The notes below the pieces were generated by a model. That model ran no database searches. It was not told where the DNA came from and worked only from the letters and a program-made list of their open reading frames with translations. Of a DNA stretch of 64,000 nucleotides, positions 12,140 to 54,522 are shown one piece after another (positions within the stretch are counted from its first letter, which is position 1; each line of letters starts with the position of its first letter). This DNA comes from Persicaria tinctoria (Eukaryota; Streptophyta; Magnoliopsida; Caryophyllales; Polygonaceae), in contig JBANSL010000019.1 of NCBI GenBank assembly GCA_037127255.1, positions 18,375,001 to 18,439,000 on the forward strand. Direction: 5' to 3'. Position numbers and translations under genes: made by a program.

Positions 12140-13494
12140 CATGACTATTGTGCCATATCGGGATAAAAGATCAATTTTCATAAATTAACCTTTCAAACTT
12201 CTCCAAAAGTTTATCCAAAGTATAATCCATATAACAAACAAAATAGCACTTGACAAATACCTCGGTTGTCCCATTATCAACGGTCGAGTAACCGAACCAC
12301 TTTTGAAGAAACAGTAAGCAAAACCAAGCAACAACTCATGAAATGGAAAGCCAACTCCCTATCACAAGAATGAAGAGCAACCCTAATAAGATCAAACTTG
12401 GCAACTAAACCAAACTATATTATGCAAAATTTTATGCTCCCCACAACAATCCATAAAGAACTTGATCAAATAAACAGATGCTTCTTCTGGAACAAAGAAC
12501 AATCATTTTCTCCCCTTATTGGGCGGAACAAGATTTGCAAGCAGAAAAGACTAAGAGGCGCAGGAATACATAAAACGAAATATATGAACCAAGCATTACA
12601 AATGAAATTGCTTTGGAAAATCTTAGCAGAACCATGTAACCCATGGGTCCAAGTGATAAAAGGAAAATATATGAAAGAAACCCCCCCTCTTTGAATACCA
12701 ATGGAAAGGTAATTCATCTTGCCAATGGACCAAACTAATGGAATTGAAAGAAGAGTTCTGCAAAGGACTAATATGGCAAATCGGAAATGGAAAGACAATC
12801 AATTTCTGGAAGGATATGTGGCTAGATGACAAACCATTACAAGGGCGACAATATCCCAACATCACAATCAACGAAAATGACAAGGCGGAAAAATATATCG
12901 ACACCTACAGGAAATGGAATATTGATGAACTATCCAACATTCTCCCACTAGATGTGGTCAAGAAGATCGAGAACATTTACATACCAGAACATGAAATAGA
13001 AGACATACTATATTGGAAACCAAGTACATCAAGTGCCCTAGCACACATCACAAGACAAAACACATAAGAAACCAGTGACACGACATGGATATGGGCCCTA
13101 GACACATTTCCGAAAGTAAAAAACTTCATTTGGAAACTTGCACTAGATGGAATCCCGACGAAAACCAGACTAGCAAACAAAGGCATCCATGTTCCACTAT
13201 CCTGCGCTTTGTGTGATTAGATGGATGAAAGCCAAATCCATCTCTTTACTGAATGCAACCACACCCTACAAATGATTCACAAAATTGACCCAAATATTGA
13301 AAAAGTGATTCGAGACATCGACACCAGAAACAAATCGATCAAAAACATTGTGTGTGAAATTTTTACAAGACTCAACCCTGAGCAAAAAGGAAAACTTGCG
13401 ACGACATGGTAGAGCTTATGGACAAGTAGGAATCAGAAAGTATTTGAAAACCTCAATACAACATCCATCCATACTATGGAGAATTATACCATAC
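12140..13494 (+). pseudogene. 5'-truncated plant L1-type LINE, reverse transcriptase C-terminal part (left half)
   Basis: Translation in shifting plus frames shows the end of a LINE reverse transcriptase: LDKYLGCPIINGRVT near 12250, then the thumb and zf-RVT-like region (INRCFFWNKEQ, QALQMKLLWKILAEP, INFWKDMWLDDKPL, FPKVKNFIWKLALDGIPTK) and SLWTSRNQKVFENLN near 13415. Several stops and frameshifts break it. The 5' part of the LINE is absent, as is usual after incomplete target-primed reverse transcription. It stops abruptly at 13494, where LTR sequence of the gypsy element begins. Its 3' end continues at 28936. Confidence 0.75.
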
Positions 13495-13517: not shown

Positions 13518-15341
13518 TAGGGGTGTTATCTGAGCCGAACAGCTCGAGCTCGGCTCGGGCTCGGCTCGAAAAAGCTCGAGCTCGGATCGTTCGAATGCAT
13601 AAAACAAGCCGAGCTTGAACAACATTTTGAGCTCGAACCGAGCTCGAGCCGAGCTCGGAAGCTCGATGTGATAATTTACGAAATTACCCCTCCCTAGGGT
13701 TATGAATTGAGGAATGATGAGTCGTTCGGCCAAAGCGCTTCACTTCAGCCGCTTCTCCCTCTTCCTCCAGTCGCTTCTCTCTCCTTCTTCCTTCCCTCAG
13801 GCGGCGCCGTTCAATCGCTTCTCCCTCTTCCTCTAGCCGCTTCTCCCTCTCCCTCTTCCTTCCCTCAGGCGGTGCCGTGGTTCAATTGCTTCTCCCTCTT
13901 CCTCCAGTCGCTCGCTCCTTCCTCCAGCCGCTTCTCCCTCTCCCTCTTCCTTCCCCCAGGCGGCGCCGACGAACTCCTGCAGCAACGCCAGGTTCCTCTT
14001 CCTCCCTCTTACCGAATCCTCCTCCTCTTACCCTCACAGACGCACACAAGACCAGAGAGAGAACGCGCAATGGAAACCGCTGCAGTTGGGATATTACCCC
14101 TATCTCCTAGCTATGTCTTCAACCCTAAACCAGGTACCCTTTCAAATCTTTTGATATTTCCCTATTTCTCTCTTTGTTTCTTGTTTTATCCATCGGAGCT
14201 AATTTCATTTCTTGAGCAATTTCTCCATCCGATTGAGGTAAAAAGCGACTGATTGTTTGTTGATTCTTGTTGTGGTTTGCAATTTCTTGGTGATATTAGT
14301 TGATTTGCTTCTGCTTTGTTGTCAATTTCTTGATTACTGACCTGTTGAGTTGATCTTATTGTCTGCCATTCATTTGCTTGATTACTGTTTTGATGTGTGA
14401 ATTGAGTTTGTGGTGAATTTTGTTTTAGATTTGAATTTTCTCAAGCAATCATTTGATTAGGTTCTTGGAATGGGGATGGCATGGAGTCAGATTATGCTTA
14501 ATGATGCCTTCGTGGTTACTGGTTCCAGATGATATACAGAGACTCTATACGGAGGTTCATTCAACTTCATCACTGAACGTAATATTGGTACAGATCTTTA
14601 GAGCTCATCTTCCCTTTTTTGCCTTCAACTTCATCACTGAATGAATGTATTTGCTGCTTAGTTTTGTTTTCTCATAACTTTAGTTGCACACTAACAGATA
14701 AAACACCAACCTACGTGCTAATTTTGCTATGTTGGGTTTGAATTTTGAAGTGACTTTTTCATTACATTTCAGATACCATGCCTATGCTAGGGGAGAAGCA
14801 AACTCTTCATCGAGAACCCGTCAACTATCGGAGCATTACTATGGTGGTAGCCACCACAGAGAAGACGACAACAGACCGCTGGAAAAACTTGTTACAGAGA
14901 AGACGACAACAAACCGAGAACACTTAATCTTTTGGATCTTATTGTTGTATTTTGAGGTGCTTGATTTCCGATGGTCTACTATCCATTGAACTTGTGTTTG
15001 TTTGGTTGTACATGGTTTAACAATCCACTTTAAATCTGTAATTTGCATTTAGACTTTTAGATACGAACCGAGCTTGAACGAGCCGAACGAGCCCAGTTGA
15101 CGAGCTTGAACGAGCCGAACGAGCCCAGTTCACGAGCTTGAATGAGCCGAAGTTCGTTCGTTCGGCTTGGTCGAGCTCAAACAAGCCGAGCTTGAGCTTT
15201 CCCCTGGGCTCGCGAGCCGAGCTTGAGCGCAAAAAAAAAGCTCGAATAGATTTTAGGCTCGAGCTCGGCTCGGCTCGTTTACCGTTCGAGCCAAGCTTGA
15301 ACATGTCAAGCTCGGCTTGTTCGGCTCATATATCAACCCTA
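13518..15341. mobile_element. Non-autonomous hAT-like element with GAGCTCGAGCC-rich ends
   Basis: Inverted ends: left TAGGGGTGTTATCTGAGCCG, right (inverted) TAGGGTTGATATATGAGCCG, both continuing AACA. Each end is followed by 150-280 bp packed with short GAGCTCG, GAGCCGA and GCTTGAAC motifs (13540-13670 and 15062-15320). The 1.8-kb size, TAGGG ends and dense subterminal motifs fit a hAT-type element. No transposase is present. The middle (about 13700-15000) is gene-like: CT-rich leader with repeated CTTCTCCCTCTTCCT blocks, an ATG at 14070 followed by METAAVGILPLSPSYVF and a GT donor. It may be a captured gene fragment. No 8-bp duplication is seen because the flanks are rearranged. Confidence 0.6.
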
Positions 15342-15411
15342 GTAGGAGGGCAGCGAAGCATGCTATAAGAAGGAGAAGGCACTCTAAGAAAGAGGTTTTT
15401 TTTTTAAAACA
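15342..15411 (+). repeat. Inverted copy of LTR sequence forming a foldback with the 3' LTR
   Basis: The reverse complement of 15342-15403 matches the first about 62 bases after the A-run of the adjacent LTR (15421-15482) with one or two differences. The two arms meet at AAAACAAGTTGTTTC, making a palindrome of about 140 bp. Confidence 0.75.
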
Positions 15412-15414
15412 AGT

Positions 15415-15709
15415 TGTTTCAAAAAAAAAACCTCTTTCTTAGAGTGCCTTCTCCTTCTTATAGCATGCTTCCCTGCCCTCCTACTGAGGGGAACGTTCCA
15501 CCTTTTCGGCCCCTTGTTGAGATATGGTTGCCACGTGTGTTGGGGAGAAGGTACACATGGATAGTGGGCATGTGCGTCATCTGTCCTTATGTGCATGTTC
15601 CTCTCGTCCGCGGACCGTATGTCGTTGTGTTTTCTTGGGCCCACTTCTACAAACCTTTTAGCCCTTTTATTTGTTTTTTCCTTATTTTGCTAACTTTCGG
15701 GCATCATCA
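15415..15709 (-). repeat. Truncated 3' LTR of the gypsy element
   Basis: 295 bp nearly identical to 28641-28935 of the 5' LTR. On the minus strand it starts TGATGATGCCCG at 15709, the LTR terminus, and is cut at 15415. A weak purine stretch (GAGGAGATG) just before it could be the polypurine tract. Confidence 0.8.
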
Positions 15710-15935
15710 CATCTCCTCGAGCCGTGGGGAAACCGGACAGGTTTGTCCGCAGTTCGAAATCCTCCTCCGTTCTTGGTGCTTCTCTAGGGCAAAAAGGTGA
15801 AGAAAAGGAGGCCCGTTGGGCCCTCTTGGGCTTTTTTGGGCATGTACCCATTTGGCCCGTTTACCCGATTGATGTGAGCCGTGATTTTGACACGTGGACC
15901 GAAATGGGAGGTGAAACGTCGTTGATTGGGGAGCC

Positions 15936-15943
15936 TATAAATA
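15936..15943 (+). promoter_or_regulatory. TATA box of an antisense transcription unit inside the gypsy element
   Basis: TATAAATA in the context GCCTATAAATAGAGG, a near-ideal plant TATA box, placed about 270 bp before the plus-strand ATG at 16209 and about 230 bp inside the 3' LTR. A possible donor (GAG|GTAAACC near 16013) and acceptor (CCTAG near 16158) suggest a leader intron. Transcription opposite to gag-pol is inferred from position and spacing. Confidence 0.6.
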
Positions 15944-16208
15944 GAGGCTCCTGACCCCTTTCATTTTTACCGTTCTCCGTTTTTTACAGCTCTCGTTTCC
16001 GAACATCTCGAGGTAAACCTAACTCTTACTCTCTCTTTTTTTTCCGCGTCTTAGTTCTTGATTTGATTTTAGTTTTTCCTTCTTTCTCCTCTTCTTTTCG
16101 GCCGCGGTTGTCGTGCGGGAATCTTCTGGATGCCTATTTAATCACTGCTGGTCCCTAGGCCTCTTCTCATTCTGCCTCTTTCCTCTTACTTGGTAAACCA
16201 TCTTCGTC

Positions 16209-18601
16209 ATGTCGACCTCGCAAAGTAGTTCCGGTAGCGTTCAAGCCTTGATCAGACCTCCGTCCACCAGGCGTTCTGACGGCAAACTCCTAATGGGTGG
16301 TATAGAGCTCCCTGAACACGTTACTTTTCGTCAACCCAAAAATCTCGCGGACCCCTCCTTTTACTCTTCTCCGGGTCGCGTGCGTGGCGAAAACTCCTCC
16401 CTTGTTGATTCCGCGTCTTCGCGGTCGGGTGGTAGAGCTTCGTCGTCAGGGTCGGACTCAATATTGAAGTCTCCTGAGTCTCAACATTATTATAAGGAGT
16501 GGGACTCTCATACCGACTTGCCCTCTGGCTCTGTCTTTCTACCAGCGGAACGCCGCTCGTCATCCGTACTGGGGGACTTCCGTCCGGTTCTGTATAATGA
16601 GGGAGTGTTAGCGACTTGCCTTTTTAGGGGGGATTTTCAGCCATCCGCCGCGGGCCCGATCCCCAGGTTGTTTGGTTGTGTACATAGAGAGCTTAGTTCA
16701 GGGGTTTCGGCTCCCTTTACCTAATTTGTTCAAGCGTTATCTAAAGGCTTGTGGTTTGAGCCCTGCTCAACTGGTCCCGAACAGCTGGCTTTTCTTGACT
16801 TCGTTTGTGATGCGTTGCTTGGAGATCGGGATCCAACCCACCCTGGGACTCTTGAGTAATATGCTCACCTTGGGTCATGGGGGTACTCACAAGAGCCTCT
16901 ATCAGGCTAAGCTCAGTGTTCCAATTGTGGAGCGGAATTCCAGCAAACCGGAGTGGCGACATAAATGGTTTTTGGTCCGTGATCCTTCTCGCCAAGTGCT
17001 GAACTTTCACACAGAGCCGCGTCTATACACACGGGTGAAGAGAAAAGTTGTGTCTGGTCTGAAAGAGATTGAGCAAAGGTTCGCGGTCGGGACAAAACCT
17101 TCGTGGAAAGAAATAGTTTCTCCTTTGCGGCTGGAGATGGCCGGCTTGAGTCACCCTCATCCACGCATAGGTTGTAGTTAATTTGGGGGTGCTTTTATTT
17201 TTGCTTTTTTCGGTGTTTTTTGACCTGGTATTGACGTTTTTGTTCTTTTCGTGGCTTTTTTAGACGTCGTGGAACTGAAAGCAATGGTAAATGCTGCGAA
17301 AACGTCTTCGGCCCCCCTTCCTCTGCTAAAAGGAAAATCCCCATCGACGTGATGAGAGCCTTAAAGCGCCCCAAGACTTCGGCCCCAAAACCGAAAGGTA
17401 AGAAGGTGGTGAAAGAGAAAGCGATGGTTGTAGTTTCTTCCTCTCCTGTTGCCCCGGTGGAGCCCGAGCCTCACGTTATCACGATCGATTCTTCTCCGGT
17501 CGCAGATGTCCAGCCTCTTCCCCTCGTGGCCCCCGCGGAGCCTCGAGCTGTTTCTCCTGCTGAAGCGGGAACTTCTAAAGCACCTCCAAAGAAGAAGAAG
17601 ACGCGTCCCTGTCCGGATTGGGAAGGTGTTGACTGGGATATGCCGGTTTTTCATGTGGATGCCAACGGTCGTCCCGCGTACCTGATGCCCAGTTTTGACT
17701 CCGACATCCTTAATCAGTTGGCCTTTCCCCCGGAGCTCAGAAAGGCGGAGTTACGATACTTGGACCACCTAACTGATGAGCAGTTTACGATCAAGCAAGA
17801 ACGTTGGTGCAATTGGGTAAGTGAATCGCGTCTTATGACTCTTGCCTATCTGATTCCCTTGACTTTTCTTTTGGGGGGTGTTTTAAACCCCATGGTGTTT
17901 TTTGCGGTTAGGGTCATGTTTTCGCTCATAGCGGCTGGGGTCGATATCTTCGCTTGGGTCAACACGCTCATGGTTTCGAAGAGAAGCTAGAGCAGATGAA
18001 AGAAAGGCTCTTGGAGGCGGAAACGCCGCAGAAGGAAATTGAGTCCCTCCATTCGCGGCTGGAGGAAAAAGACGAAATCATAGCCGCCGAGAAGGCGAAA
18101 AGTAATAAGCTGGCTGAGGACATGGAGACGTTGCAGGCCCAGCTTGGGTCTTCCCAGCAGGCTCTGACCACTTTGCAATCTAATTCCGAGGCCCAGAAGA
18201 TTGGGTTCGAGAACCTGCTGTTAGCGGCGAACGAGGTGCGGAGCAAAGCGATCGTGGAGGCCAATCGACATTCAATCGAGTTGGAGCGATACCAGTCCCG
18301 TACGGACGGTGATATCGTCCTGTCTTGGTTAGAAGTTCCACACAATCGTACAAAGCTTGTGGATGACTGGCAGAAAACCCCGAACGGCCTGGAGTTTATG
18401 AAGAGCGCGGTTCCCGAATTGTTGTATGAAGAGGCCGGGCAAGAGTTCATCCAAGGTCGGTACAGAGATTGCTTTTATATAGGGATGAAAGTCGGGATTC
18501 ACCAGAGCGTGAAGAAATCCGCGGAGACCCCGGGTGTTCCCCTTCAGCCATTCTCCCCAAGTGAAGACCGGGAGGACTCGAACTTGGTAGACGACGAGTA
18601 G
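16209..18601 (+). pseudogene. Antisense accessory gene: putative gypsy-type transposon domain plus coiled coil
   Basis: Plus-strand (antisense to gag-pol) coding unit. Part 1 (16209-16670) is Ser/Arg-rich. After a frameshift near 16670, the part to 17170 reads GFRLPLPNLFKRYLKACGLS and PNSWLFLTSFVMRCLE, the pattern of the putative gypsy-type transposon domain (Pfam Transposase_28, PF04195). An intron is likely at 17171-17263 and a second is clear at 17817-17911 (95 bp, GTAAGT...TTAG), which joins two frames in phase. The last part is a long Glu/Lys/Leu/Gln coiled coil (about 17980-18300) ending in a conserved-looking tail to the stop at 18599-18601. A further frame break lies near the C-run at 17312. 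Between the breaks the reading frame is well kept, so decay is recent or some breaks are sequence errors. Some Tat elements (for example maize Grande) carry antisense genes at this position (family knowledge). Confidence 0.65.
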
Positions 18602-18629
18602 GTGGACTTTAGTGGTTACGGTTTGTAAG

Positions 18630-18654
18630 CCCCCCCCCCCCCCCCCCCCCCCCC
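18630..18654. repeat. 25-bp poly(C) tract
   Basis: A run of 25 C (poly-G on the sense strand of the retroelement) lies 29 bp after the antisense stop codon. Such a run is a known site of sequencing and assembly error, so its true length is unsure. Confidence 0.85.
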
Positions 18655-18989
18655 ACCCTTTTTATTGTTCTTCTGGGTTAGACAAATTTCGATACTCCGC
18701 TCGATGCCTTATTTTGGCTTATGTTTTTTGGTGCCCGCGGGATGTCCGCGTAGGAAACTTTGTCCGCGACGTCGTTCTTTTGTTTTACTCTTTAATGACG
18801 ACTCTTTTTGAACCAGGTTTCGTTTCTCTTAATCGGTGAAAAATACGAAAACTTCGCCTAAGGGGCGTCTTTTGTTTTCATTCAACATTTCACATTTATT
18901 TGGGCTTCCTTCCTGACAAACAAGGCTTTAAATCTTAAAGACTGGTTTCCGCCCTAAAAGGTGTCCTCGCTGCCTTCGCCTTCAGAAGT

Positions 18990-19140
18990 GTTGTCTTCTC
19001 CTGAAGGGACGTAGCTGGCCTTGAAGCGCGAGAACGTGGGTGCCTCTCCTCCCCGACCCATTGGTTAAGACTATTCTTTCGACACCTGGTAGTCCGTACT
19101 CTGCCTCGAAAAACGCCGGCAGGGGCTGTGGTTGTTGGGG
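18990..19140 (-). pseudogene. B3-like domain fragment, N-terminal half
   Basis: The minus frame from about 19134 reads PQPLPAFFEAEYGLPG and then VERIVLTNGSGRR, which lines up with LLPSRFEVEYGPDLPGRILL in the plus-strand frame at 21226 and with the start of B3 DNA-binding domains (L-P-x-x-F ... V-x-L). The C-terminal half (GW..F motif) is not seen and the frame ends soon. Overlapping frames give an acidic tail (NTSEGEGSEDTF) that could belong to a protein end after splicing. Tentative. Confidence 0.4.
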
Positions 19141-19194
19141 AAAACTTTAGGCACGAAAGGAAAACTAAGAATTAATGGAGAGTTTTGAGGAACA

Positions 19195-19386
19195 TTACCA
19201 TTCTTTGTAGGAAAGAGGCGTTCTGGATCCATCAGAGGAAATCTCTGGGGCGGTCATTGCATGCTGCCATCTTGCTTTGGAATTTTTGTTATCTTCTAAT
19301 ATAAAAATGTCCAAAGGGGATCCCTTGGCTTTGGTTTTTATAGAGGAGATGACGGATATTGTTTCTTTATTCGTTAGATTTTTCAT
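19195..19386 (-). CDS. Small unidentified frame between the B3-like pieces
   Basis: A 63-residue minus-strand frame beginning MKNLTNKETISVISSIKTK, basic at the start, no recognised domain. It lies between two B3-like pieces on the same strand and could be a linker exon, or chance. It is listed because the surrounding frames on this strand appear to form one decayed gene. Confidence 0.2.
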   Translation of the reverse strand: MKNLTNKETISVISSIKTKAKGSPLDIFILEDNKNSKARWQHAMTAPEISSDGSRTPLSYKEW

Positions 19387-19559
19387 TTATTAATTCCACC
19401 AATTTTGTTCTTCTCCCCCCCTTGTTTCTTTTTCTAAAATCGTTCCTTCCCTAGGCTTCTAGGGACCGAAGATAGAGAGCGGGGGGAAAGCAACTTTTCT
19501 GACTTGCTGTAAGTGCTTTGAGAACGACAAATCCTTTATTTTTTGAAAAAACTTTTATT

Positions 19560-20010
19560 GTTACAAGGTACATCGGGGCTCAAAGATTCACATTTTGCGC
19601 TTCTGGGCCTTCGAGCTTCCTTGGGCTAGCGTGGGCTCTCGGTGGGCCTTGGCTTTGGGAGGGCCCATGTCTGTTGGGCCACGCTTCTTTTCGCAATCGG
19701 GGGTTGAGTCGGGATAGGATACGTACACCTCGAAGAGGGACTCCCCCTCATAAACGAAGAGGAGCGAGCATCATGTGACTACTCGGTTAAAGAAAGTAAA
19801 GTCCGGCCACCCGTCCGTGAACCAGTACGCCCCGTCCGCGTCTCTTTCAACGTCGACCTCGAAATCTTGACAAGTGGCGGACCATAGATAGACAAGCATG
19901 TGTGTTTCATCTCCTAGTTGTTCGAACATCCGAGGCAATTACAGTGTTTGTAATTGCTCTTCCTTAGTGATGAAACGGTAGAAAGCATGTGGAGAGTTTC
20001 GAGAACCCAT
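19560..20010 (-). pseudogene. Decayed B3-like DNA-binding protein gene (copy 2) in the retrotransposon
   Basis: From ATG at 20010 the minus frame reads MGSRNSPHAFYRFITKEEQL, then LPRMFEQLG, then FEVDVERDADGAYWFTDGW and LLFVYEGESLFEVYV, interrupted by two in-frame stops (one after QTL, one after NRVVT). The order F-Y-R ... L-P-x-x-F ... V-x-V ... GW..F ... L-x-F ... F-E-V is that of plant B3 domains. It resembles copy 1 at 20392-20796 closely enough (FYR-(V/F)-I-x-KEEQL, then a GW motif) to suggest a tandem duplication. The tail is Lys/Pro/Ser-rich without known motifs. Function as a DNA-binding protein is inferred from the fold pattern only. Confidence 0.5.
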
Positions 20011-20391
20011 ATTGAAGTTCCTCTAAGGGTAATGGTTTAGGTGGTCGGCTTATGTCGTTTTCTTTCCCTCCTTTTTATGGTGTTTAATTTACCGGAGTTG
20101 CCTATAGCCAAGTGGCTTTTGGGTCAGCGACTCCTGTCCTACGTGGAGGTCCTTTACTATCCACATTTCATTCTTTCTACTGATCGGGGTTTGCGTATTT
20201 TTCGAGAAATCTGGTCACAATATGCATCTCATATTTCTTAGAGGAAAAAAGCCATTAAACGTGATTTATTGAAAAGATGCAGTCCTTATTTGAAATTCGA
20301 ACTAACTCCCGATACAATTGTGCTTGGGGTTAAAGGAATAAGACGTGGGGATTCTACCAAAAAAGGGGGACTGATCTCTCACCCGATTTTC

Positions 20392-20796
20392 TTAGGCGAT
20401 CGAGGTGTGGTCTTCATAACCTGGGTCTGGATCGACCACGGAAACCTCGTATCGAACTGCTCCTCTTTCTTTGGTGAATCGGAGGATGGTCCCCACCCGT
20501 ACGCGGGTGGCTGTAGTAAAGTTGTTCCACCCTTCCGTTATCCAGTAGATCCCGTCGCGACCACGGTCGATTCTGACTTCGTGTTCTTGGTATGCTTGTG
20601 AGCTGAGGGTAAGGCTCCCTTGTGCATCTTGTTCCAATATCTCGTACATAAGTGGAAGGCGGAGTTGTCGGAGTTGTTCCTCCTTCAAGATAACTCTGTA
20701 AAAAGTGGCCTGGGGTGATTCCATGAGGGGGTTCGTGGTTATCTGTGAAACAGCTCCCGTCGCCAGGCTATTTTCTTCTTCTCCCTCCTTTCCCAA
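20392..20796 (-). CDS. B3-like DNA-binding domain protein (copy 1) inside the gypsy element
   Basis: Intact frame of 134 residues. From about residue 25 it reads MESPQATFYRVILKEEQL, LRLPLMYEIL, then GSLTLSSQAY, HEVRIDRGRDGIYWITEGW, NNF, VRVGTILRF and YEVSVVDP. This matches the B3 pattern: start F-Y-R-V, L-P helix, paired V-x-V strands, the GW..F motif, G-x-x-L-x-F strand and a last V strand. The length of about 100 residues for the domain is typical. In plants B3 domains are found in ARF, LAV, RAV and REM transcription factors; REM-type domains are the most variable and would be the nearest guess. The frame runs in the same direction as gag-pol. It starts head-to-head with the plus-strand frame at 20745, with the starts overlapping. 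Profile search is the deciding test. Confidence 0.55.
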   Translation of the reverse strand: MGKEGEEENSLATGAVSQITTNPLMESPQATFYRVILKEEQLRQLRLPLMYEILEQDAQGSLTLSSQAYQEHEVRIDRGRDGIYWITEGWNNFTTATRVRVGTILRFTKERGAVRYEVSVVDPDPGYEDHTSIA

Positions 20797-21194
20797 TTTT
20801 TAAAGTTGAGGGAAATCACGGGCTCTCTTTCATCTCTCTGTTGTCGAGTCTTTTCGTGGTGGCAGGTATTGATCTGCCCGAGGTGGGTCCTTGTGATACA
20901 GATGTCCGTCATGCCCGATCTGGGGCAGTGATGCCTTATCGAACTGTTCTTGTGTTTTTCCCAGGCCCCCCCTATTATGTTTTCGAGGTGGTTTATATGC
21001 GACATGTGACCTCGGGAAAATCCTTTAAAACCGGGATCCCCGAGTTCCTTAGTCCTCACAAATTGAGTCCTTCTAAAGATGTCATCCTCCGGTCGGACAA
21101 ATTGGGCATTCTTCTGGTCACTGGACTTCCCGGAGCAGATGCACCATCTGATAGGTTCTTTCTGCGGCTCACAGTTCTTGTTAGAGTTCTGTGA
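20745..21194 (+). CDS. Antisense unidentified frame upstream of a B3-like frame
   Basis: A 149-residue plus frame with a hydrophobic start and the late stretch PSDRFFLRLTVLV, which could be the first strand of the B3-like domain completed at 21226 (F-F-x-R-L-x-V). If so, the two frames are parts of one broken or spliced gene. The first 80 residues overlap the opposite-strand B3-like gene and may not be coding. I do not recognise the rest. Confidence 0.3.
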   Translation: MKQLPSPGYFLLLPPFPIFKVEGNHGLSFISLLSSLFVVAGIDLPEVGPCDTDVRHARSGAVMPYRTVLVFFPGPPYYVFEVVYMRHVTSGKSFKTGIPEFLSPHKLSPSKDVILRSDKLGILLVTGLPGADAPSDRFFLRLTVLVRVL

Positions 21195-21225
21195 GCGATT
21201 TTATCTTTGTTTATCTAACTAATTC

Positions 21226-21591
21226 ATGTTTGAGAAGCTGCTGCCTTCTCGTTTCGAGGTCGAGTACGGCCCGGACCTTCCCGGGCGCATTTTGTTGTCG
21301 TCGAGAATTATTCGGGACTTCCATGTGACGGTCTACCGAGGTGACTACCGCGTGCCCTACCTTGGGCATGGGTGGAATCATTTTGCCTGTATGCATGGCG
21401 TCGATATAGGATCTTCCATCACCTTTTTGCACAAGTGGAACGCACGGTTTGAGGTTCATATCTTGTCTGCGGATGGCGATGAGGTTGATCCCGAATGGAG
21501 AGAACCTCATCCTGAAGGACCCTTGCCAAATGGGACGCGGTTGTCTGGGGACAGGACTCTTTTGGTTCCTGATCAACCCAGGGAGAGGTGA
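21226..21591 (+). CDS. B3-like domain frame on the antisense strand (copy 3)
   Basis: Intact 121-residue frame: KLLPSRFEVEYGPDLPGRIL, FHVTVYRGDYRVPYLGHGW, NHF, GVDIGSSITFLHKW and ARFEVHIL, followed by an acidic-basic tail. The L-P-x-x-F, V-x-V, GW..F, G-x-x-(I/L)-x-F and F-E-V-x-I positions are those of a B3 domain lacking only its first strand, which may be in the previous frame. It runs opposite to the B3-like copies 1 and 2. Its ATG lies inside the domain, so the real start is upstream and the gene is spliced or truncated. Confidence 0.5.
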   Translation: MFEKLLPSRFEVEYGPDLPGRILLSSRIIRDFHVTVYRGDYRVPYLGHGWNHFACMHGVDIGSSITFLHKWNARFEVHILSADGDEVDPEWREPHPEGPLPNGTRLSGDRTLLVPDQPRER

Positions 21592-21814
21592 TCCCGTGAG
21601 CTAGTCTGGGTTCTTCCCCCCAAAGATTGCTTCTGGGCTTCCTTGGGGCTGTTCGACTGGTCTTTTTCAACCTACGCTTTTAGAATTTCTGCTTTGTTTT
21701 CAATTTTTTGGGTTATTCCTTTTGGGTTTTAACAACACCGCTTCTGATGATGTCGGCGGTCTTGTCAAGTGTATCCCATATTCCTGGGAGGCAATGGTCT
21801 ACTTCAAATGCTTG

Positions 21815-22600
21815 ACAAGGATCGAACTCTAGTGTCATAGGACTTTAAGTATAGTCCAGCGGCTCTATGCGTTCACCGGATGTCCGACGCGGAGCAAGCT
21901 CCAGCGTCATAAGACTTCAAGTATAGTCCGGGAGCTCAACGCGTCCACTAGATGTCCGATGTGGAGCAAGCTCCAGCGTCATAGGACTTCAAGTATAGTC
22001 CAGCGGCTCTATGCGACCACCGGATGTCCGACGCGGAGCAAGCTCCAGCGTCCTAGGACTTCAAGTATAGTCCGGGAGCTCAACGCGTCCACTAGATGTC
22101 CGACGCGGAGCAAGCTCCATCGTCATAGGACTTCAAGTATAGTCTGGGAGCTCAATGCGTCCACCGGATGTTCGACGGGGAGCAAGCTCCAGCGTCATAG
22201 GACTTCAAGTATTGTCCGGCGGCTCTATGCGTCCACCGGATGTCTGACGCGGAGCAAGCTCCAGCGTCCTAGGAATTCAACTATAGTCCGAGAGCTCAAT
22301 GCGTCCACCGGATGTCCGACGCGGAGCAAGCTCCAGCATCATAGGACTTCAAGTATAGTCCGGGAGCTCAACGCGTCCACCGGATGTCCGACGCGGAGCA
22401 AGCTCCAGCGTCATAGGACTTCAAGTATATTCCGGGAGCTCAATGCGTCCACCGGATGTCCGACGCGGAGCAAGCTCCAGCGTCGTAGGACTTCAAGTAT
22501 ATTCCGGGAGCTCAATGCGTCCACCGGATGTCCGACACGGAGCAAGCTCCAGCGTCGTAGGACTTCAAGTAGAGTCCGAGAGCTCAATGAAAGTTGTTTC
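21815..22600. repeat. 72-bp tandem array in the 3' region of the gypsy element
   Basis: About ten to eleven units of 72 bp, each with GATGTCCGACGCGGAGCAAG, CTCCAGCG, GACTTCAAGTATAGTC and GAGCTCAA. Because 72 is divisible by three, one frame stays open and gives a 24-residue repeat (KLQRHRTSSIVRELNASTGC core), which is probably not a protein. Units differ by a few bases. Tandem arrays between integrase and the 3' LTR are known for Tat/Ogre elements (family knowledge). Confidence 0.85.
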
Positions 22601-22684
22601 AAGAATGTAGAAAGCACCCACTAACCGCTTTGATTTATTTACTGATAGCGGGGGTGAATTGATAAACTTCGAAATAGCTGAATG

Positions 22685-23936
22685 TTACACATAGTACTTT
22701 TTCAAGTGTTCCGCGTTCCACGTTTTTCGAAGAACAACACCTTCAGGGGTTTGTAACTTGTATGCTCCAACATGGACACATTCGAAAACTACATATGGTC
22801 CTTCCCATTTAACGTCCAACTTCCCACCTGATAGAGCTAGGCAGAGGACCAGATCTCCCTTCTCGAACTGTCGCGCGTTGAGATGCTGATCTCTATGTCT
22901 TTGGGTCTTTCTTTTGTACTCTCGAGCCTTGATTTCAGCGAGCATCCTCCTCTCTTCTCGAAGGTGCAGTTCAATATCCAGAGCTTCGTCATTGGCCTTG
23001 GATTCGTAGGCTAAAACCCGCGCAGAAGGGATCAAACGTTCGACTGGGATGACGGCATCTGCCCCAAATACCAAAGCAAACGGTGTTTCCCTAGTGGGAG
23101 TTTTAGAAGAGGTTCGGTATGACCAGAGTACTAGTGGGAGCAGCTCTGCCCACCGGCCTTTGGAGGTTTTCCCTAGCTTCTTCTTGATTCCTTCTAGGAT
23201 TTGGCGGTTAGTTGTTTCTGCTTGTCCGTTCGTTTGTGGGTGAGCTACCGATGAGAACTTTAACTTTATCCCGAGGCCCTCACAAAAATCCCTAATGCTT
23301 TCACAGTCGAACTGAGTTCCGTGGTCCGTGATGATGGCCTCGGGTACTCCAAAACGGCACACCAGGCTCTTCCATAAGAATTTTCTGACTTTCTCCGCAG
23401 TGATCAAACACATTGCCTCCGTTTCTACGCATTTGGTGAAATAGTCCACCAGAACTAGGACATATTTTAATTGTCCGGGAGCTGTGGGGAAAGGGTCCAG
23501 AATGTCCATTCCCCATAAGGCGAAAGGGCATGCCCTATATATGCTTTGAAGTGGTTCGGCGGGTAAATTCTTCACATTTCCATGTCTCTGACAAGCGTCA
23601 CAGCTGCGCACAAAGCTCTGTACATCCGCTCTAACCGTTGGCCAGTAGTATCCCAGTCTCAGAACTTTTGAAGTTAATGCTCTCCATCCTTGGTGGTGAG
23701 CGCACACTCCCTCATGCAATTCTTTCACGATGGTGTGCTATTCTCTCGGGTGGAAGTATTCCTTTCCCCAGATATTCAGCAATCGGTGTCCGCCAATCTT
23801 CGGAGCCCTCGGTTTGGACAAAATATACCTCTTGCAGAAGTTTCCGTTGATCCTTTCTTTCAAACTCGAATTTCCCGTCCACTTCTGGTGGCATAGCGGC
23901 CCCAATTCGGGCCAACAAATCGGCCTGCTCATTCAT
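22685..23936 (-). pseudogene. Ty3/gypsy integrase
   Basis: Frame 23728-22685 holds the integrase: HHCC zinc finger (HEGVCAHH ... CDACQRHG), catalytic core with the three acids in LVLVDYFTK, IITDHGTQF and NGQAETTNRQ, and a C-terminal domain ending near WNAEHLKKYYV. The short frame before it (23936-23712) carries the linker from RNase H and is joined by a frameshift near 23720. Integrase inserts the element DNA into the host genome. The core looks complete, but it can only be made as part of a broken polyprotein. Confidence 0.85.
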
Positions 23937-24539
23937 TTATCTAGGAACGGATTCCACGGTGAAGTGTAAGAATGCTCTTCTTAGAGCGTTTACCTTCCGT
24001 AGGTAATCTGGTAACAGCCCAGTCCTGGCTTCGTACACCCCCTCTATTTGCTTTGCGACGATCTCGGAATCTGTATACACCATGACGGCCCGAGCTCCGC
24101 GGGTCAATGCTAGCTCAAGCCCCGCTATCAGAGCTTCTTATTCTGCCTCGTTGTTGGTGGCTTGAAAATCCAAACGGTGAGCAAAGAAAAACCGATCTCC
24201 CCCAGGGGAGGTCAGCGCTATTCCTACCCCGCATCCGTCCGCGTTCACGGCTCCATCGACCTTCATTGTCCACCTGTTTTGCGTGTCACTGCCTTCATCT
24301 CCAAAGTTGGTTTCACCAATGAAATCTGTCAGAACCTGAGCAAGTGCTACCTTGCGCGGGACGTAAGCTATTACAAATTCTGAGAGCTCAATGGACCACT
24401 TCGTCATTCGCCCCGAAAGACCTGGTGAATGAAGAATCTGTCTAAGCGGCAGATCCGTCAAAACTTCTATTAAGTGATCATGGAAACATGGACGAAGTCT
24501 TCTGGCCGCGAACATCGGACTGAGGACCACCTTTTCCAC
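23937..24539 (-). pseudogene. Second (plant/archaeal-type) RNase H domain of the Tat lineage
   Basis: Frame 24539-24138 and the following same-frame stretch read WTMKVDGAVNADGCG, TNNEAE, a stop where a Tyr codon is expected, EALIAGLELAL, VYTDSEIVAKQI and NEQADLLARIGA. These hold the catalytic Asp-Glu-Asp-Asp positions of an RNase HI of the plant/archaeal kind, with the N-N-E-A-E motif. A second RNase H just before integrase is typical of Tat-lineage elements (family knowledge). A second stop lies just before NEQAD. Confidence 0.7.
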
Positions 24540-24998
24540 CGGCTCGTATCTGGTTTCTGCATCCTATAATACCCGGCTTACATAGTAAACTGGATACCGT
24601 CCTTCTCGGGTGAGGACCGCGCTGATAGTGGCTGCTTTCACCGCTAGGTATAGCTATAAACTTTCTGACTTCTGTGGTTGATGTAGAGTTGGCAAATACT
24701 GTAGGAAAACTTTTAATTCTTCGAAAGCCTGTTGGAGATCAGGTGTCCACTGAATCGGACCTTTCTTTTTTAGCAACGCGAAGAAAGGTAAGGATTTATC
24801 ATCCAGGCAAGAACAGAAACGTCCCAGGTAGTTCACCGCTCCATTCAAATACTGTACCTCTTTTATGGTACGTGGTGGGCGCAGCTCCTGTATAGCAGCT
24901 ATCTTAGCGGGGTTCACATCTATCCCTCTTTGGCTTACCATGAAGCCCAGGAATTTTCCCGAGTCGACCCCAAAAACACACTTTTCTGCGTTCAGATT
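24540..24998 (-). pseudogene. Reverse transcriptase end and first (gypsy-type) RNase H, degraded
   Basis: Frame 24941-24654 shows VSQRGIDVNPAKIAAI, the end of the RT thumb, then YLGRFCSCLDDKSLPFFALL and QWTPDLQQAFEELK, the usual entry to the gypsy RNase H. The rest of that domain is broken by stops and continues into PLRQILHSPGLSGRMTKW downstream. Confidence 0.7.
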
Positions 24999-26509
24999 CA
25001 GCCCTCCACACTTAGAGAATTGAAAGTCTCCTGCAGATCAGCCGCGTGATTCTCTGCTTTCTTACTCCTTACAACGATGTCGTCCACGTAGATAGACACA
25101 TTCCTGGCCAGCTGCTCGCGGAATATCTTGTCTACGGCTCTTTGAAAAGTGGCCCTAGCATTCCTCAGACCAAAAGGCATGACCTTGTAATAGAAAATTC
25201 CTTGATTGGTGATGAAGGTGGTCGCCCTTTTATCCATCGGGTCTAATCGGATCTGGTTGTACCCAGAATACGCGTCCAAGAAACTTAAAGCCTCGTTTCC
25301 AGCAGTAATATCAACCAACTCGTCAATTGATGGCAAAGGATAACTGTCCTTGGGGCAGGCTTTGTTTAAATCTGAGAAATCTACACACATCCTCCATTTC
25401 CCGTTGGCCTTTTTTACTAAGACCACGTTCGATAACCAGTCTGAATCCTCTGCTTCCTCTATGAATCATGCTTCAAGTAACTTTTCTACTTCTTCCTTTG
25501 CTGCTTGGGATTTCTCCGAGGCCATTTTTCTCTTCTTCTGGGCCACGGGCCGCGCGTCATGGCGTATTCTGAGGGTATGGATTGCTATCAACGTGGGAAC
25601 GCCCAAAAGATCCTTCGGGGACCACGCGAACACGTCCCGGGATTGACGGATGATTTCCAGAACCCGTTTCTTTTCCCCTGCCCCTAGAGCTTGGCCCATG
25701 TAAATTCTCTCTTCGGGATTTTGAAATGGCTGATGGACGGTTCTTTGATCCGCGGTTGGGATCTCCCTTTCTGACGGTCTGACTTCAAGTTCCGCTTCTG
25801 ATGCAATTTCTTTGGTGACGTTTACTGTTTTGTTTTCTGCTTGGGAGTCTCCTTTTGGGCCTTCGATCTTACTTTGAGCGGATTCTTCGAGACACATGAT
25901 CTTCTTCTTCTTTTTCAAGGAATTCACATAACATTTCCGGCTCTTTGGCTGCTGAACACATACTTCCCCCGTCCCTCCTCCGGAGATAGGGAATTTTTCT
26001 TTGAAGTGATAGATCGAAAACACCATCTGAAACTTGTAAAGGGACACCCTCCCCAAGAGTGCATTGTAAGTAGTGGGGATCCGTACCACCGTGAAGATGA
26101 TGTTTTCCATTCTTCGACAAGGTGCGGTACCCAAAACCACCGTGAGCTCTATGGTGCCCGCCATATGCACCTCATCTCCCGAAAAGGTAATCAGTGTACC
26201 ATGATAAGGCCTTAACGCTGTTGCGGATACTCCTAACTGGGAAAAAGCTTCCCACGAGAGTATGTCCACCGATGATCCGGTGTCTATGAAGACTCTTTTT
26301 ACAGTCTTGGTGGCGATCTGGGCATGAATCACCAGGGGATCCGCGTGTAGCATGCGAACTTCTTCAGCATCTGTTGTAGTGAAGATTATTTCTGGATGTG
26401 GTTGTACAACGATCTTCTGGCTGGCGGTTGATGGAGGCTGCCTTGCCTCCCTTTCGTAATTTTTTCTCTCCTGTCGACTTATTCCTGAGATGGACGGTGC
26501 TCCTGCCAA
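24998..26509 (-). pseudogene. Ty3/gypsy protease and reverse transcriptase
   Basis: Frame 26509-25466 holds an aspartic protease with active-site FIDTGSSVDILS and the flap and ALLGR region, then a linker ending EEVEKLLEA at a TGA. The same frame reopens as the reverse transcriptase: GKWRMCVDFSDLNKACPKD, SFLDAYSGYNQI, MPFGLRNARATFQ and the catalytic YVDD near 25096. A frameshift near 25005 cuts the thumb. The protein would cut the polyprotein and copy the element RNA. The single TGA between protease and RT is read as a mutation of a Gly or Arg codon. Confidence 0.85.
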
Positions 26510-26579
26510 AGTGTCGATGAAACACTCTGGTTCTGGGATTTGATTGACCCGCGATCCCTCTCGACGGACCTCGTCGCGT

Positions 26580-27957
26580 GAGGCCTAATTGACTGACATC
26601 TGTGCAGGTTGACCCTGACCCCTTCGGCCACCTCTCCACCATCGTCCCCGCCCCCTGCCTCTGTTTGCGGGGGGAAATCGCTGTTGTTCATCCCATTCAT
26701 GGGGGTATTCAAACCTCGAGGCTCGTTGATAATTTTCTCTGTTATCCGCGTGGCCACCATCATAGCTGTTCTGAGCTTGGTGACGATACGGGACGTTGTC
26801 ACGATGCTCATTTTTCCTTCGAGGAGAAACTTGCTCTCTTCTATGTCGTACTCTTTGATCGCGCTCCTGATCCCCATCGTCTGGATTCTTTCCTTCGCGG
26901 TTAAAATGGACCTCGTCTTGTCGGGAAGTGTGCAGGTTGTCCGTGGAGTAATTCTTCCTCGGCCTTATCATTCCTTTGTCTTTCCGAATCCTGCCATCTT
27001 CCCTAGGAACCCCCGCGGGCCCTCGTTGGCTCTTGAGCTGGAGGTCGCGGATTCCTTTACCTCAATTTGAGCAGATACCGGATTCCTCAATGTGTCGTAA
27101 TCTTTCGGTTTTTTCCTGAAGAGTCGGGTCTTGAATCCGCCTTCAACTAAGTTCTCCATCAAGATTATGACCACTGATTCATGATTGAAACTAGGAATCT
27201 GCACCACCACAGAAGTGAATCGCGCAAAAAACTGCCTAAGAGTCTCATTCGGCCCTTTTCGGATTGAGTTAAGATCCAGCATGGTCTTCTTTCTGGACCG
27301 CGAACTCCCGAAATGGGACTTGAAAACCCAGGAAAGCTGAGCAAAGGTATCAATCGGTTAGAGTTGAAGGGAAAGTGCGGCACAACATCGCGCCGTCATA
27401 CTCGTTAATCCCCATTGCTGTTGTAAAGTGGCACATGTGGTCATCGAGGTCAGAGGTGCCATCATACTTCATAAGGTTGGTGTCTCTCCATCGTTTAGGA
27501 ACCTGAGCTAAGCAAACCTCGGTGGTGAAAACCGAAGGGATAAAGTTATGTCTCCTCTCATTCTCACAGGGTGAGCCCGTTCTGGTTGACGTGGAAATGT
27601 CGGATGAACGCTCGCCCCTCTGGTGTTTGTGAGCACGTCTATCTTTGCAGCGATGGTGCGTGCCGAAATCATCGGAGAATCTTGACTAGTGGTAATCTTG
27701 ATGAGCATGCCATATAGATTATGGGGAATACCGTTGTAAGGGTTCCCCTGTTGGAACGACTGGTATCCATCGTATCCGTAAAAGAAACCTTGCCCAGGAT
27801 TGGGCGGTGGGAAGTAGTGTTCCCCATGCATAAAATAGCCCTGGCCCATCTGTTGAGGGATGTATGGCGAGAACACCGGATTTTCCGGCGCGCTGTCCTG
27901 ACCCGGGGAATTCACATGCATGGTGGACTCTTGGAATCCTCCGTTGTCATGACTCAT
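26580..27957 (-). pseudogene. Ty3/gypsy gag
   Basis: The ATG at 27957 opens a Gln/Tyr/Pro/Gly-rich N terminus. The Retrotrans_gag core is in frame 27282-26968 (LRQFFARFTSVVVQIPSF, LMENLVEGGFKTRLF). A frame change at 26970 (stop and ATG overlap) leads to a basic Arg/Gly tail (RGRGRGRWWRGGRRGQ) that takes the place of the CCHC nucleocapsid knuckle. A single TAG near 26588 separates gag from the protease in the same frame. Gag forms the virus-like particle. Confidence 0.75.
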
Positions 27958-28105: not shown

Positions 28106-28935
28106 TGATGAAACCACAAATGAAAAAGTAGACCCCACCCCACATTTCCATGGGAGGAGGATGCCACGTATTTCCTCATATGATAATTTGGTCGAATGGT
28201 CTTACCTGAAGCCCTTCCCCTACTATGATCTGGCGCTTGGTATGGGCGCAATGAGGGAAAGGGTCTCAACCTGTGCCATACCGACCTGGAGGAAATTATG
28301 ACGGTCTTACACGTAACCTGAGATCCTCGTCATCCGCGAAGACCTCACGGCCAGTGCCGCCGAGCCTTTGGACTAGGCTCGCATCACTTATCGTGTTATG
28401 GGTTCATCAAATGGCTTCTTGGTATAGGAAGTACATCAATTTACTACAATAGAGATCAAGGTTAGAAAACGATATTCTCTCTTGCTTCCCCGACTGTCGT
28501 CCTACTACCTGTCCCGTGCAGACTCCCGTTCTCAAGTACTCGTTGCCAGCGGATGGATAAGGGACGAAGAAGAAGAAGAATATTATCGTAACTTTTATCC
28601 CCCTCTCTCTCTATCTCTGAATTAACGTCTCTCTATCTGTTGTTTCAAAAAAAAAACCTCTTTCTTAGAATGCCTTCTCCTTCTTATAGCATGCTTCACT
28701 GCCCTCCTGCTGAGGGGAACGTTCCACCTTTTCGGCCACTTGTTGAGATATGGTTGCCACGTGTGTTGGGGAGAAGGTACACATGGATAGTGGGCATGTG
28801 CGCCATCTATCCTTATGTGCATGTTCCTCTCGTCCGCGGACCGTATGTCGTTGTGTTTTCTTGGGCCCACTTCTACAAACCTTTTAGCCCTTTTATTTGC
28901 TTTTCCCTTATTTTGCTAACTTTCGGGCATCATCA
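28106..28935 (-). repeat. 5' LTR of the gypsy element (830 bp)
   Basis: Bounded on the minus strand by TGATGATGCCCG at 28935 and GTGGTTTCATCA at 28106, that is TG...CA with an extended TGATGA/TCATCA inverted pair. The primer binding site follows at once. The last 295 bp on the right are shared with the truncated 3' LTR. A solo LTR at 58511 has the same ends. Confidence 0.8.
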
Positions 28936-29191
28936 GTGGGAGATTGAGATGCTGATTTCCGACACCCTGCTCATACTCCAACAATTTGGTAGGGTGCAAT
29001 TTGGCCATGTTTTCCGGGAGGTCAATTCGACCGCGGACAGGATTGCGCGACTCGTACACACGACATCCATGCAGGACATCCACGCTGATTCTGCTTTGCA
29101 CGTCCTCATCCGTAAGGATGCTCTTTGGTGGTGGTCTAGCAGGACCTGACCTCACCCAAATCTTTACCTTAGCAACAAAAAAAAAAAAAAA
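28936..29191 (+). pseudogene. LINE RNase H domain and poly(A) tail (right half of the split LINE)
   Basis: The plus frame reads WEIEMLISDTLLILQQFG and FGHVFREVNSTADRIARLV, the end of the RNase H-like domain of plant L1-type LINEs (HV-R-E-x-N-x-x-A-D), then a short tail, a stop and a poly(A) run at about 29177-29192. The repeated target sequence begins at 29192. Together with 12140-13494 it is one LINE, but the start of the RNase H domain is missing at the junction. Confidence 0.75.
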
Positions 29192-53310: not shown

Positions 53311-53334
53311 GAGGTGTTGATCGGGGCACACCCT

Positions 53335-53784
53335 GATGTGCTCGGGAACTCTCCGAGCCGCCAGGATCGACGACAAGGTTCCTCTTTTATTTGAAGAGAT
53401 GAAGTTTCTACTAGTAACCGGATATGTATGGCGAAATTCGCAGGCCTCTCACCCTTGAACCTCCCACACTCGATCTCAATCCTCTCGGAATCGCACTCTG
53501 AGGATCTCGACCCTTCGACACCTTCGCCTCTCACTAGGGTGTCTCCCTCGGCATCTCACCAAAGGGTTTTGTTTTTAGCATCTCACCAAAAACATGATCC
53601 TTAACCCGGAATCAAAGGAAGCAAATGTGCTCAACTTTTCACTCAAAAATTCAACTTGTATTAAAAATGGGAAACCTCACACAATATATAGGAGAAACTC
53701 TAGCCTCCTATGTGTTTACAAGCGATGTGGGACACTTTTTAAATAGAAAAATATAAGAAAAATCTATAAGTCTAAATCACATCA
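53335..53784 (-). repeat. 3' LTR of the TRIM-like element
   Basis: Plus-strand start TGATGTGCTCGGG, end AAATCACATCA, 450 bp. Nearly identical to 54072-54522. Target duplication CACCC at 53330-53334. A polypurine tract AAAGGAGGGGAGGA lies next to it at 53785-53798 (minus strand). Confidence 0.85.
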
Positions 53785-54071: not shown

Positions 54072-54522
54072 TGATGTGCTCGGGAACTCTCCGAGCCGCC
54101 AGGATCGACGACGAGGTTCCTCTTTTATTTGAAGAGATGAAGTTTCTACTAGTAACCGGATATGTATGGCGAAATTCGCAGGCCTCTCACCCTTGAACCT
54201 CCCACACTCGATCTCAATCCTCTCGGAATCGCACTCTGAGGATCTCGACCCTTCGACACCTTCGCCTCTCACTAGGGTGTCTCCCTCGGCATCTCACCAA
54301 AGGGTTTTGTTTTTAGCATCTCACCAAAAACATGATCCTTAACCCGGAATCAAAGGAAGCAAATGTGCTCAACTTTTCACTCAAAAATTCAACTTGTATT
54401 AAAAATGGGAAACCTTACACAATATATAGGAGAAACTCTAGCCTCCTATGTGTTTACAAGCGATGTGGGACACTTTTTAAATAGAAAAATATAAGAAAAA
54501 TCTATAAGTCTAAATCACATCA
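54072..54522 (-). repeat. 5' LTR of the TRIM-like element
   Basis: 451 bp, differing from 53335-53784 by a few substitutions (for example GACGAGG for GACAAGG, CCTTACAC for CCTCACAC). Followed on the minus strand by the tRNA-Met primer site. Confidence 0.85.

Follow-up and report, generated by a model that had tools for sequence, protein, structure and literature searches.

A set of four small REM-type B3 genes and a conserved palindromic array in a Tat/Retand-type retrotransposon of Persicaria tinctoria

We analyzed a stretch of 64,000 nucleotides of the Persicaria tinctoria genome (the window; assembly GCA_037127255.1, contig JBANSL010000019.1, positions 18,375,001 to 18,439,000 of the forward strand), in which a preliminary description had placed several plant B3-like domains inside a Tat-type element. 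The best explanation is that the window contains, on its minus strand, a single decayed member of a family of Ty3 retrotransposons (Tat/Retand type). This family carries gag-pol, an antisense TRP28 gene and four small B3 genes of one domain each, of which three run in the direction of pol and the fourth opposite to it. The parts of these four genes, in window positions, are the following.

20392..20724, minus strand: B3 copy 1, intronless and open; PF02362 E=9.5e-6, profile hit to At1g16640
19588..20010, minus strand: B3 copy 2, intronless, two stops inside the domain; PF02362
21079..21150, plus strand: B3 copy 3, exon 1 of 24 codons with the first domain strand; in 34 of 35 copies examined
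21151..21237, plus strand: B3 copy 3, intron, no GT start in the window copy; 82-100 nt long in the family
21238..21591, plus strand: B3 copy 3, exon 2; PF02362 30.1-30.4 bits
18960..19143, minus strand: B3 copy 4, remnant of exon 2 with a frame shift and its middle lost; tblastn with the open L005 relative
19199..19270, minus strand: B3 copy 4, exon 1 of 24 codons with a stop in the window copy

The frame of copy 3 (21226-21588, plus) matches the Pfam B3 family PF02362 with 30.4 bits (E=3.9e-7), slightly above the curated cut-off of 30.1. That of copy 1 (20392-20796, minus) stays below the cut-off with 25.3 bits (E=1.5e-5), and copy 2 (19560-20010, minus, stops read as X) gives 19.3 bits (E=1.1e-3). 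The copy-1 homologue at L010 (L numbers denote loci from the same genome, L001 being the window itself) scores 39 bits, and five other relatives score 21.2-26.3, again below the cut-off. B3 is nevertheless the sole Pfam family matched by 33 of the 33 members of our alignments A2 and A3 (E<=0.01), so that chance does not explain the matches. The fourth fragment (about 18990-19134, minus), likewise described as B3, gives no Pfam match in the window copy, whichever of three frames is used; its relatives at four other places all match PF02362 (E=5.7e-5, 2.8e-4, 7.4e-6 and 2.4e-5), and judged by these sequences it is what is left of a genuine B3 gene.

A profile of the three window copies found the solved B3 domain At1g16640 at E=0.0027, and one of 19 members (classes 1, 1' and 2) found it at E=2.6e-4. 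Searched alone against the PDB, copy 1 reached At1g16640 only at E 0.084, and copy 3 returned no B3 chain, only unrelated chains taken as chance (PapG, E 0.17 and worse). Structure prediction gave a B3 fold for a relative of copies 1 and 2; a prediction from three window rows had a predicted local distance difference test score (pLDDT) of 44.4 and was set aside. Neither copy 1 nor the three window copies gave a match in protein searches at their limits; only the 19-row alignment did, with two proteins. In viral contigs, copy 3 gave 7 pattern matches and 0 relatives, and a plasmid search was likewise fruitless. A 465-nt plus-strand frame (20727-21191), considered as an additional B3 gene, was dropped after the true exon 1 of copy 3 had been recognised. 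Taken together, our results show that the four genes are B3 domains, as had been read from the frames.

The same genes recur in other copies of the element. A single genome was searched, the window's own (1.68 Gb), and at most the best 150 places were scored per search. For copy 3, the best 150 of 5,909 candidates lie at E<=1.7e-55 with 73-100% identity, 37 of them with stops, and a strict 23-nt pattern of its domain has 75 exact matches in the genome (reversed control, 0). An opposite-strand B3 domain adjoins copy 3 in 30 of 30 loci, a count that includes the window and the overlapping L005 and L012. All eight 10-kb pieces share the gene order TRP28 (+), copy 4 (-), copy 2 (-), copy 1 or copy 1' (-) and copy 3 (+), with copy 1 lacking its middle in L036. 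The integrase (-) follows in six of the eight and is absent from pieces L034 and L035. Open relatives of every B3 class are present elsewhere in the genome; the window copy itself is decayed, copy 2 having stops, copy 4 being broken and the copy 3 intron not starting with GT. Profile, structure, recurrence and selection (below) bear out the preliminary description in its central claim of several B3 genes in a Tat-type element, a tandem pair pointing one way and one gene the other, and its placement of this divergent set between the integrase (22685-23737) and the LTR (long terminal repeat; 15415-15709) is correct. It missed exon 1 of copy 3, the two-exon build of copy 4 and a conserved tandem array.

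Some loci show other arrangements of these genes. At L005/L012 (C11:48221442-48224238), a module of copy 3 and copy 2 occurs three times in tandem, at a spacing of about 1,218 bp. What is left of a decayed copy 1 accompanies copy 1' at L033:4695-5153 (+), L035:5267-5422 (-) and L010:3201-3350 (+), from which it follows that copy 1 and copy 1' took each other's place or existed side by side. Some 14 B3 exons scattered over the genome (e.g., L061 and L062; two were read) have similar scores and cover a profile range of about 16-84 in an open frame of about 76-85 aa; these look like another B3-bearing repeat.

Selection on the genes was assessed by median pairwise ratios of nonsynonymous to synonymous divergence (dN/dS, Nei-Gojobori), which are 0.101 for copy 3 (35 sequences, 27 stop-free), 0.122 for copy 4 (n=8), 0.164 for copy 2 (n=9), 0.174 for copy 1' (n=19) and 0.255 for copy 1 (n=10). 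The set leaves aside L001, L002, L009, L012, L013 and L022, which coincide with other loci or with the window. Rows below 80% of the longest in their class were removed (copy 1 from 16 to 10, copy 1' from 20 to 19, copy 2 from 18 to 9, copy 4 from 11 to 8, none for copy 3). Pairs with dS <=0.02 or at saturation were removed too, which left 557 of 595 for copy 3 and 27 of 28 for copy 4 and took none from the other classes. Stop-free rows number 4 of 10 for copy 1, 12 of 19 for copy 1', 7 of 8 for copy 4 and 0 of 9 for copy 2, whose query extends beyond the normal gene end. Passive transduplication, in which host B3 fragments were caught by chance and have no function, would suit the broken copies 2 and 4 of the window and its copy 3 intron without a GT start. 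However, dN/dS is 0.10-0.26 in frame and 0.99-2.0 in the two shifted frames, the gene set is identical in eight of eight pieces, and a second family also carries B3 genes; this explanation is rejected on dN/dS and has next to no probability.

In nine long pieces, median pN over median pS (proportions of nonsynonymous and synonymous differences) is 0.150 for copy 3, 0.158 for copy 4 and 0.245 for copy 2, compared with 0.162 for the integrase (seven of the nine pieces), 0.113 for a TRP28 exon and 0.185 for the TRP28 coiled-coil exon. The B3 genes are thus under purifying selection, copies 3 and 4 about as tightly as the integrase and copies 1 and 2 somewhat less. That copies 3 and 4 are selected about like the integrase would also be expected if the B3 proteins acted in integration, by tethering the pre-integration complex or by shielding sibling copies from insertion, and targeting domains occur in several other retroelements. 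This role is improbable in our view, as the B3 genes are separate from the integrase and some apparently have their own promoters.

The exon structure of the genes points to their origin. Copy 3 appears to begin without the first domain strand because this strand sits in the upstream 24-codon exon, which carries a stop in 3 of the 34 copies that have it. Of these 34 copies, 30 have a GT donor for the intron of 82-100 nt, 31 an AG acceptor and 28 the two together. Copy 4 is a two-exon gene of the same build, and copies 1, 1' and 2 are intronless. In copies 3 and 4, exon 2 begins one codon ahead of (L)P, and this acceptor codon matches that of 15 of 16 host B3 loci, the exception being L063, which is ARF-like in appearance; the acceptor of L050 was taken from direct reading of the locus, its automated match being chance. 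Two element B3 genes therefore keep the intron of the REM family. A comparison with host B3 domains, suggested in the preliminary description, groups the element domains with those of REM type: in a tree of 80 columns, all element B3 classes form one clade (ultrafast bootstrap, UFBoot, 97) beside host L058 (95), within a clade with L049, L056, L057 and L060 (98). The tree has long branches and excludes window copy 1 (trailing stop codon), and its host loci are termed REM by intron and likeness, not by name. Most likely, a host REM-type gene was captured once and then duplicated within the element. Introns may have been lost from some sense-strand copies after duplication; a sense intron can be removed via reverse transcription of spliced RNA, whereas an antisense intron cannot. 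Copy 4 is a case of a sense intron that persisted. The intron of the antisense gene, which survives retrotransposition, is a natural marker of the gene's own transcript.

Candidate promoter elements were found ahead of some of the genes.

15936..15945, plus strand: candidate TATA box of TRP28, CCTATAAATAG, at -271 to -285 of the ATG
19336..19343, minus strand: candidate TATA box of copy 4, CTATAAAA, at -71 to -81 of the ATG

Nine elements were examined. The TATA box keeps these distances in five of the six elements with a located ATG for TRP28 and in seven of eight for copy 4, and copy 1' has one at a fixed distance in five of five.

The remaining features of the element are listed below.

15415..15709, minus strand: 3' LTR, TG...CA on both strands; direct repeat
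28641..28935, minus strand: 5' LTR; direct repeat
16209..18598, plus strand: TRP28 (Transposase_28, PF04195) gene, several exons or frames, antisense to gag-pol
21808..22683, no strand assigned: 72-bp tandem array of about 11 units between copy 3 and the integrase
22685..23737, minus strand: integrase; PF00665 E=1.4e-13, PF17921 E=2.3e-12
23738..24563, minus strand: end of RNase H, then a second RNase H (aRH position); PF17917 E=1.2e-6, PF13456 E=4.2e-17, stops read as X
24998..25465, minus strand: reverse transcriptase, partial frame; PF00078 E=3.5e-26
25466..27357, minus strand: protease and gag frames; Pfam

The LTR definition rests on a direct repeat of 296 nt (mate 28640-28935) with 8 differences in 296 sites (Kimura two-parameter distance, K2P, 0.0276), which at typical substitution rates corresponds to an insertion age of about 1-2 million years. 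Sequence shared with element copy L036 begins at 15413, near the edge of the 3' LTR. No primer-binding site or target-site duplication was seen on inspection by eye. Reverse transcriptase, RNase H, second RNase H and integrase (RVT_1, RT_RNaseH, RVT_3, rve) follow one another on the minus strand; gag matches PF03732 (E=2.4e-8, 26968-27357) and the protease matches PF13975 below its cut-off (E=7.6e-4, 25466-26584). An aRH between RNase H and integrase is the arrangement reported for Ogre/Retand in the accessible part of the source (PMC6317226). The antisense TRP28 gene (PF04195, 34.4 bits, E=2.7e-8, on 16612-17178) lies on the plus strand between pol and the 3' LTR and is present in eight of eight relatives; together with the aRH position, it identifies the Tat/Retand arrangement. 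The stretch from pol to the 3' LTR measures 6,975 bp (15709 to 22685).

Several side observations concern the element and its surroundings. TRP28 (16209-18598) shows an exon-like split with comparable gaps in relatives (a trpA-trp28 gap of about 160 bp in most), and this antisense gene probably has introns too. Between it and the B3 set lie 29 C-rich bases (18630-18658), and G runs precede copy 4 in L033 and L036. An inverted copy of about 76 nt abuts the outer end of the 3' LTR and forms a near-perfect palindrome (15337-15490), the left flank being an inverted LTR end. The flank frames 12374-13067 and 28936-29149 are LINE-like by eye, the latter with an RNase H-like end, and the element may have been inserted into a LINE. 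A perfect direct repeat of 300 bp occurs at 53334-53633 and 54072-54371 (spacing 738 bp).

The core of the tandem array, GACGC GGAGC AA GCTCC A GCGTC, is an imperfect palindrome. An array is present in eight of eight relatives, with units of 70-75 bp in about 3 to 41 copies (the L035 array reaches the end of its piece), and 2,786 places in the genome match a 30-nt core exactly (control, 0). Units of different elements diverge by a median p of 0.143, or 0.159 without the search anchor and 0.036 net of within-array variation; in the same elements, p is 0.314 in the intron, 0.294 in the 250 nt ahead of copy 3 and 0.44-0.56 at synonymous sites. The palindromic core of the array is therefore far more conserved than intron or synonymous sites. 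The array is open over 263 codons in the window, but relatives have units of 70, 71, 72, 75, 77 and 78 bp, and a coding function was rejected. An inverted repeat of this kind could also work as RNA hairpins in packaging or export, in genomic or antisense RNA and independently of B3. One unit of a second family folds at z -1.74 (plus) and -2.66 (minus), but for the tested unit of the window, folding barely exceeds that of shuffles (z -1.25 and -0.40), and among 192 cores we counted 7 double changes where 8.7 were expected, against 72 + 167 one-sided ones. As nearly all arm changes are one-sided, with no excess of double changes, covariation gives RNA pairing no support; neither do the fold scores, and we regard hairpins as very improbable.

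A second, divergent Retand family was sampled by six pieces fetched among the best 150 of 1,309 PF04195 places. Its TRP28 is about 45% and its integrase about 59% identical to those of the window family. B3 genes are present in four of the six pieces; the order there is TRP28 (+), B3 (+), copy 1' (-), B3 (+) and a copy-3-like B3 (+), and this last gene was seen in L067, L068, L070 and the continuation of L065. An integrase was found in L068 and in that same continuation. The other two, L066 and L069, show no B3 gene, array or integrase in 13 kb, and are probably truncated and uninformative. All four B3-bearing pieces contain an array of 77-78 bp units with the core GACGC GGAGC C AA GCTCC A GCGTC, which in L065 lies after a probable nested insertion. 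Array and B3 genes thus occur together in nine of nine pieces of the first family (window included) and in four of four B3-bearing copies of the second. The core 24-mer of the second family has 18,869 exact matches, some of them in a satellite, and this figure is not a count of elements. The satellite, of 1,637 bp, lies near a contig end (L071, C1:284900-288600; C1:33148-318926), and its unit includes about 200 bp from the array of the second family and lacks B3; an element array seems to have seeded a subterminal satellite.

These data suggest a mechanism in four steps. The element encodes several B3 proteins under selection, as shown above; they would be made from their own short transcripts, in keeping with the positionally conserved TATA boxes of copy 4, the copy-1 homologue and TRP28. 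The proteins would then enter the nucleus and bind the element's own DNA. B3 domains usually bind DNA and binding by the element proteins is likely; to our knowledge, DNA binding has not been shown for every REM domain. We infer that the palindromic array is the predicted site of at least one element B3, bound most likely as a dimer, which the symmetry of the core would suit. By analogy with the VANC system of VANDAL transposons, of which this would be a retrotransposon counterpart, bound B3 may finally keep the element transcribable or counter its silencing. Taken as a whole, the proposal that selected B3 proteins bind the array and keep the element active is, in our judgement, evenly balanced. 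The suggestion in the preliminary description that such an element could govern its own promoter or target sites is compatible with these data.

Several observations weigh against this proposal. The profile of 14 class 3/4 members reaches RAV1, ARF5 and TEM1 only at E 0.07-0.08; solved B3 domains lie at E 0.07-0.27 and two antibody chains likewise at 0.14. Copy 3 has no TATA box at a shared place in the nine elements (one lies at -381 in L031), and copy 2 is preceded by one in only two of nine. The array is tied to no particular B3 class, and its conservation could come from a host factor or from recombination. Its core shares no more 8-letter words with the rest of the element than shuffles do (78 vs 65.8, sd 8.5) and only slightly more of 9 (21 vs 15.7) and 10 letters (8 vs 3.7), and its word matches in LTR, genes and promoters fall at no common place; a link between array and promoters is therefore not supported. 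Between the families, the copy-1 homologue is 77% identical in amino acids, compared with 54% for the other B3 class compared. The inter-family pS of copy 1' is 0.618, against 0.74-0.85 in other genes (its row is without the copy-1 forms of the window, L031 and L036, and the integrase row has L068 alone for the second family, with 7 pairs), and alignments of 322-847 nt at 71-81% lie partly outside the gene. The low pS and the alignments past the gene point to exchange of a module between families rather than constraint alone, and by sequence comparison the copy 1' module has probably been exchanged.

The weak word sharing between array and promoters also suits a reading in which the B3 targets lie elsewhere, in LTR or internal promoters or in host genes (a REM-like tuning of reproductive tissues), with the array as a separate cis element such as a host-bound enhancer. 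This would draw on the same evidence of B3 identity and selection and on the REM origin, and the several long-branched B3 classes could mean several targets. It leaves the co-occurrence of array and B3 genes in both families unexplained, a weak objection since descent predicts it too. We consider targets elsewhere possible but rather unlikely.

More broadly, we tentatively propose, with somewhat less confidence than an even balance, that Retand elements of flowering plants have captured and multiplied a REM-type B3 family and paired it with a palindromic operator array, for activation or de-silencing of themselves and of sibling families, modules being swapped between families. Such a system would have escaped notice because in any single copy its genes are short, carry an intron or are broken.

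VANDALs are DNA transposons of the Mutator type, and VANC is not known to us as a B3 protein. In the accessible part of the report, VANC is described as binding tandemly repeated motifs in the noncoding DNA of VANDAL transposons (PMC5735166). The likeness to our element, a transposon-encoded protein paired with tandem repeats, is an analogy that comes from the coexistence of array and B3 genes. Binding was demonstrated for VANC and is predicted here from sequence, and VANC targets vary considerably between related elements (PMC5735166), whereas the array core is conserved between our families. The element proteins resemble the host REM family (PMC2688026; At1g16640 1yel, VRN1 4i1k) in fold, sequence clade and intron position; unlike it, they are single-domain proteins of about 110-140 residues inside a retrotransposon, and three of the classes are intronless.

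As in Retand elements with antisense TRP28 (Vicient 2025, PMC11963269, as far as accessible), the element has a long stretch between pol and the 3' LTR, an antisense TRP28 and a pol-adjacent tandem array; its 6,975 bp slightly exceed the surveyed range of 2,933-6,566 bp. Among the domains listed in the available text of this 2025 survey, whose table has 63 clusters, are Smc, topoisomerase and Mis12, and B3 is missing (PMC11963269); this agrees with the earlier remark that B3 genes are not a standard part of Tat elements. That agreement is qualified by the survey's scope of open reading frames (ORFs) of at least 600 bp plus TRP28, the B3 ORFs being shorter. Grande gene23 is likewise antisense between pol and the 3' LTR, with its own promoter (PMC7264820), and the protein of the Grande antisense gene is nuclear (PMC11963269). 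In the accessible text, Grande gene23 and Retand ORF4 are not described as B3 (PMC7264820); here the antisense B3 gene exists in addition to antisense TRP28.

We found one literature statement on B3 in LTR elements, with subscription papers and preprints outside the search: a domain screen of 121 genomes names Aegilops tauschii LTR element consensuses with B3 (PMC9289625). As in our case, the domain lies inside Ty3-type elements; in the part of the report available, it is one sentence on one genome, without place, introns, selection or array. In the accessible texts, PMC7602945 and PMC10881582 each mention 'B3 domain' once, about host genes, and the term is absent from PMC13317346, PMC11728184, PMC6317226 and PMC7264820. 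Retand elements with accessory genes are thus known, and undescribed as far as we could search is a selected set of several B3 genes that has REM introns and goes with a conserved palindromic array.

The survey, in its accessible part, leaves open what makes nearly all recently active Retand elements retain a long region from pol to the 3' LTR that contains antisense genes and, in many cases, tandem repeats (PMC11963269). In our element, selected genes of transcription-factor type lie in this region next to a conserved palindromic array, so that the question can be put directly to the test by in vitro DNA binding. If B3 proteins do bind the array, the element would represent a self-regulating or anti-silencing LTR retrotransposon system built from a host transcription-factor family, and genome-wide counts of plant B3 genes may include element-borne genes.

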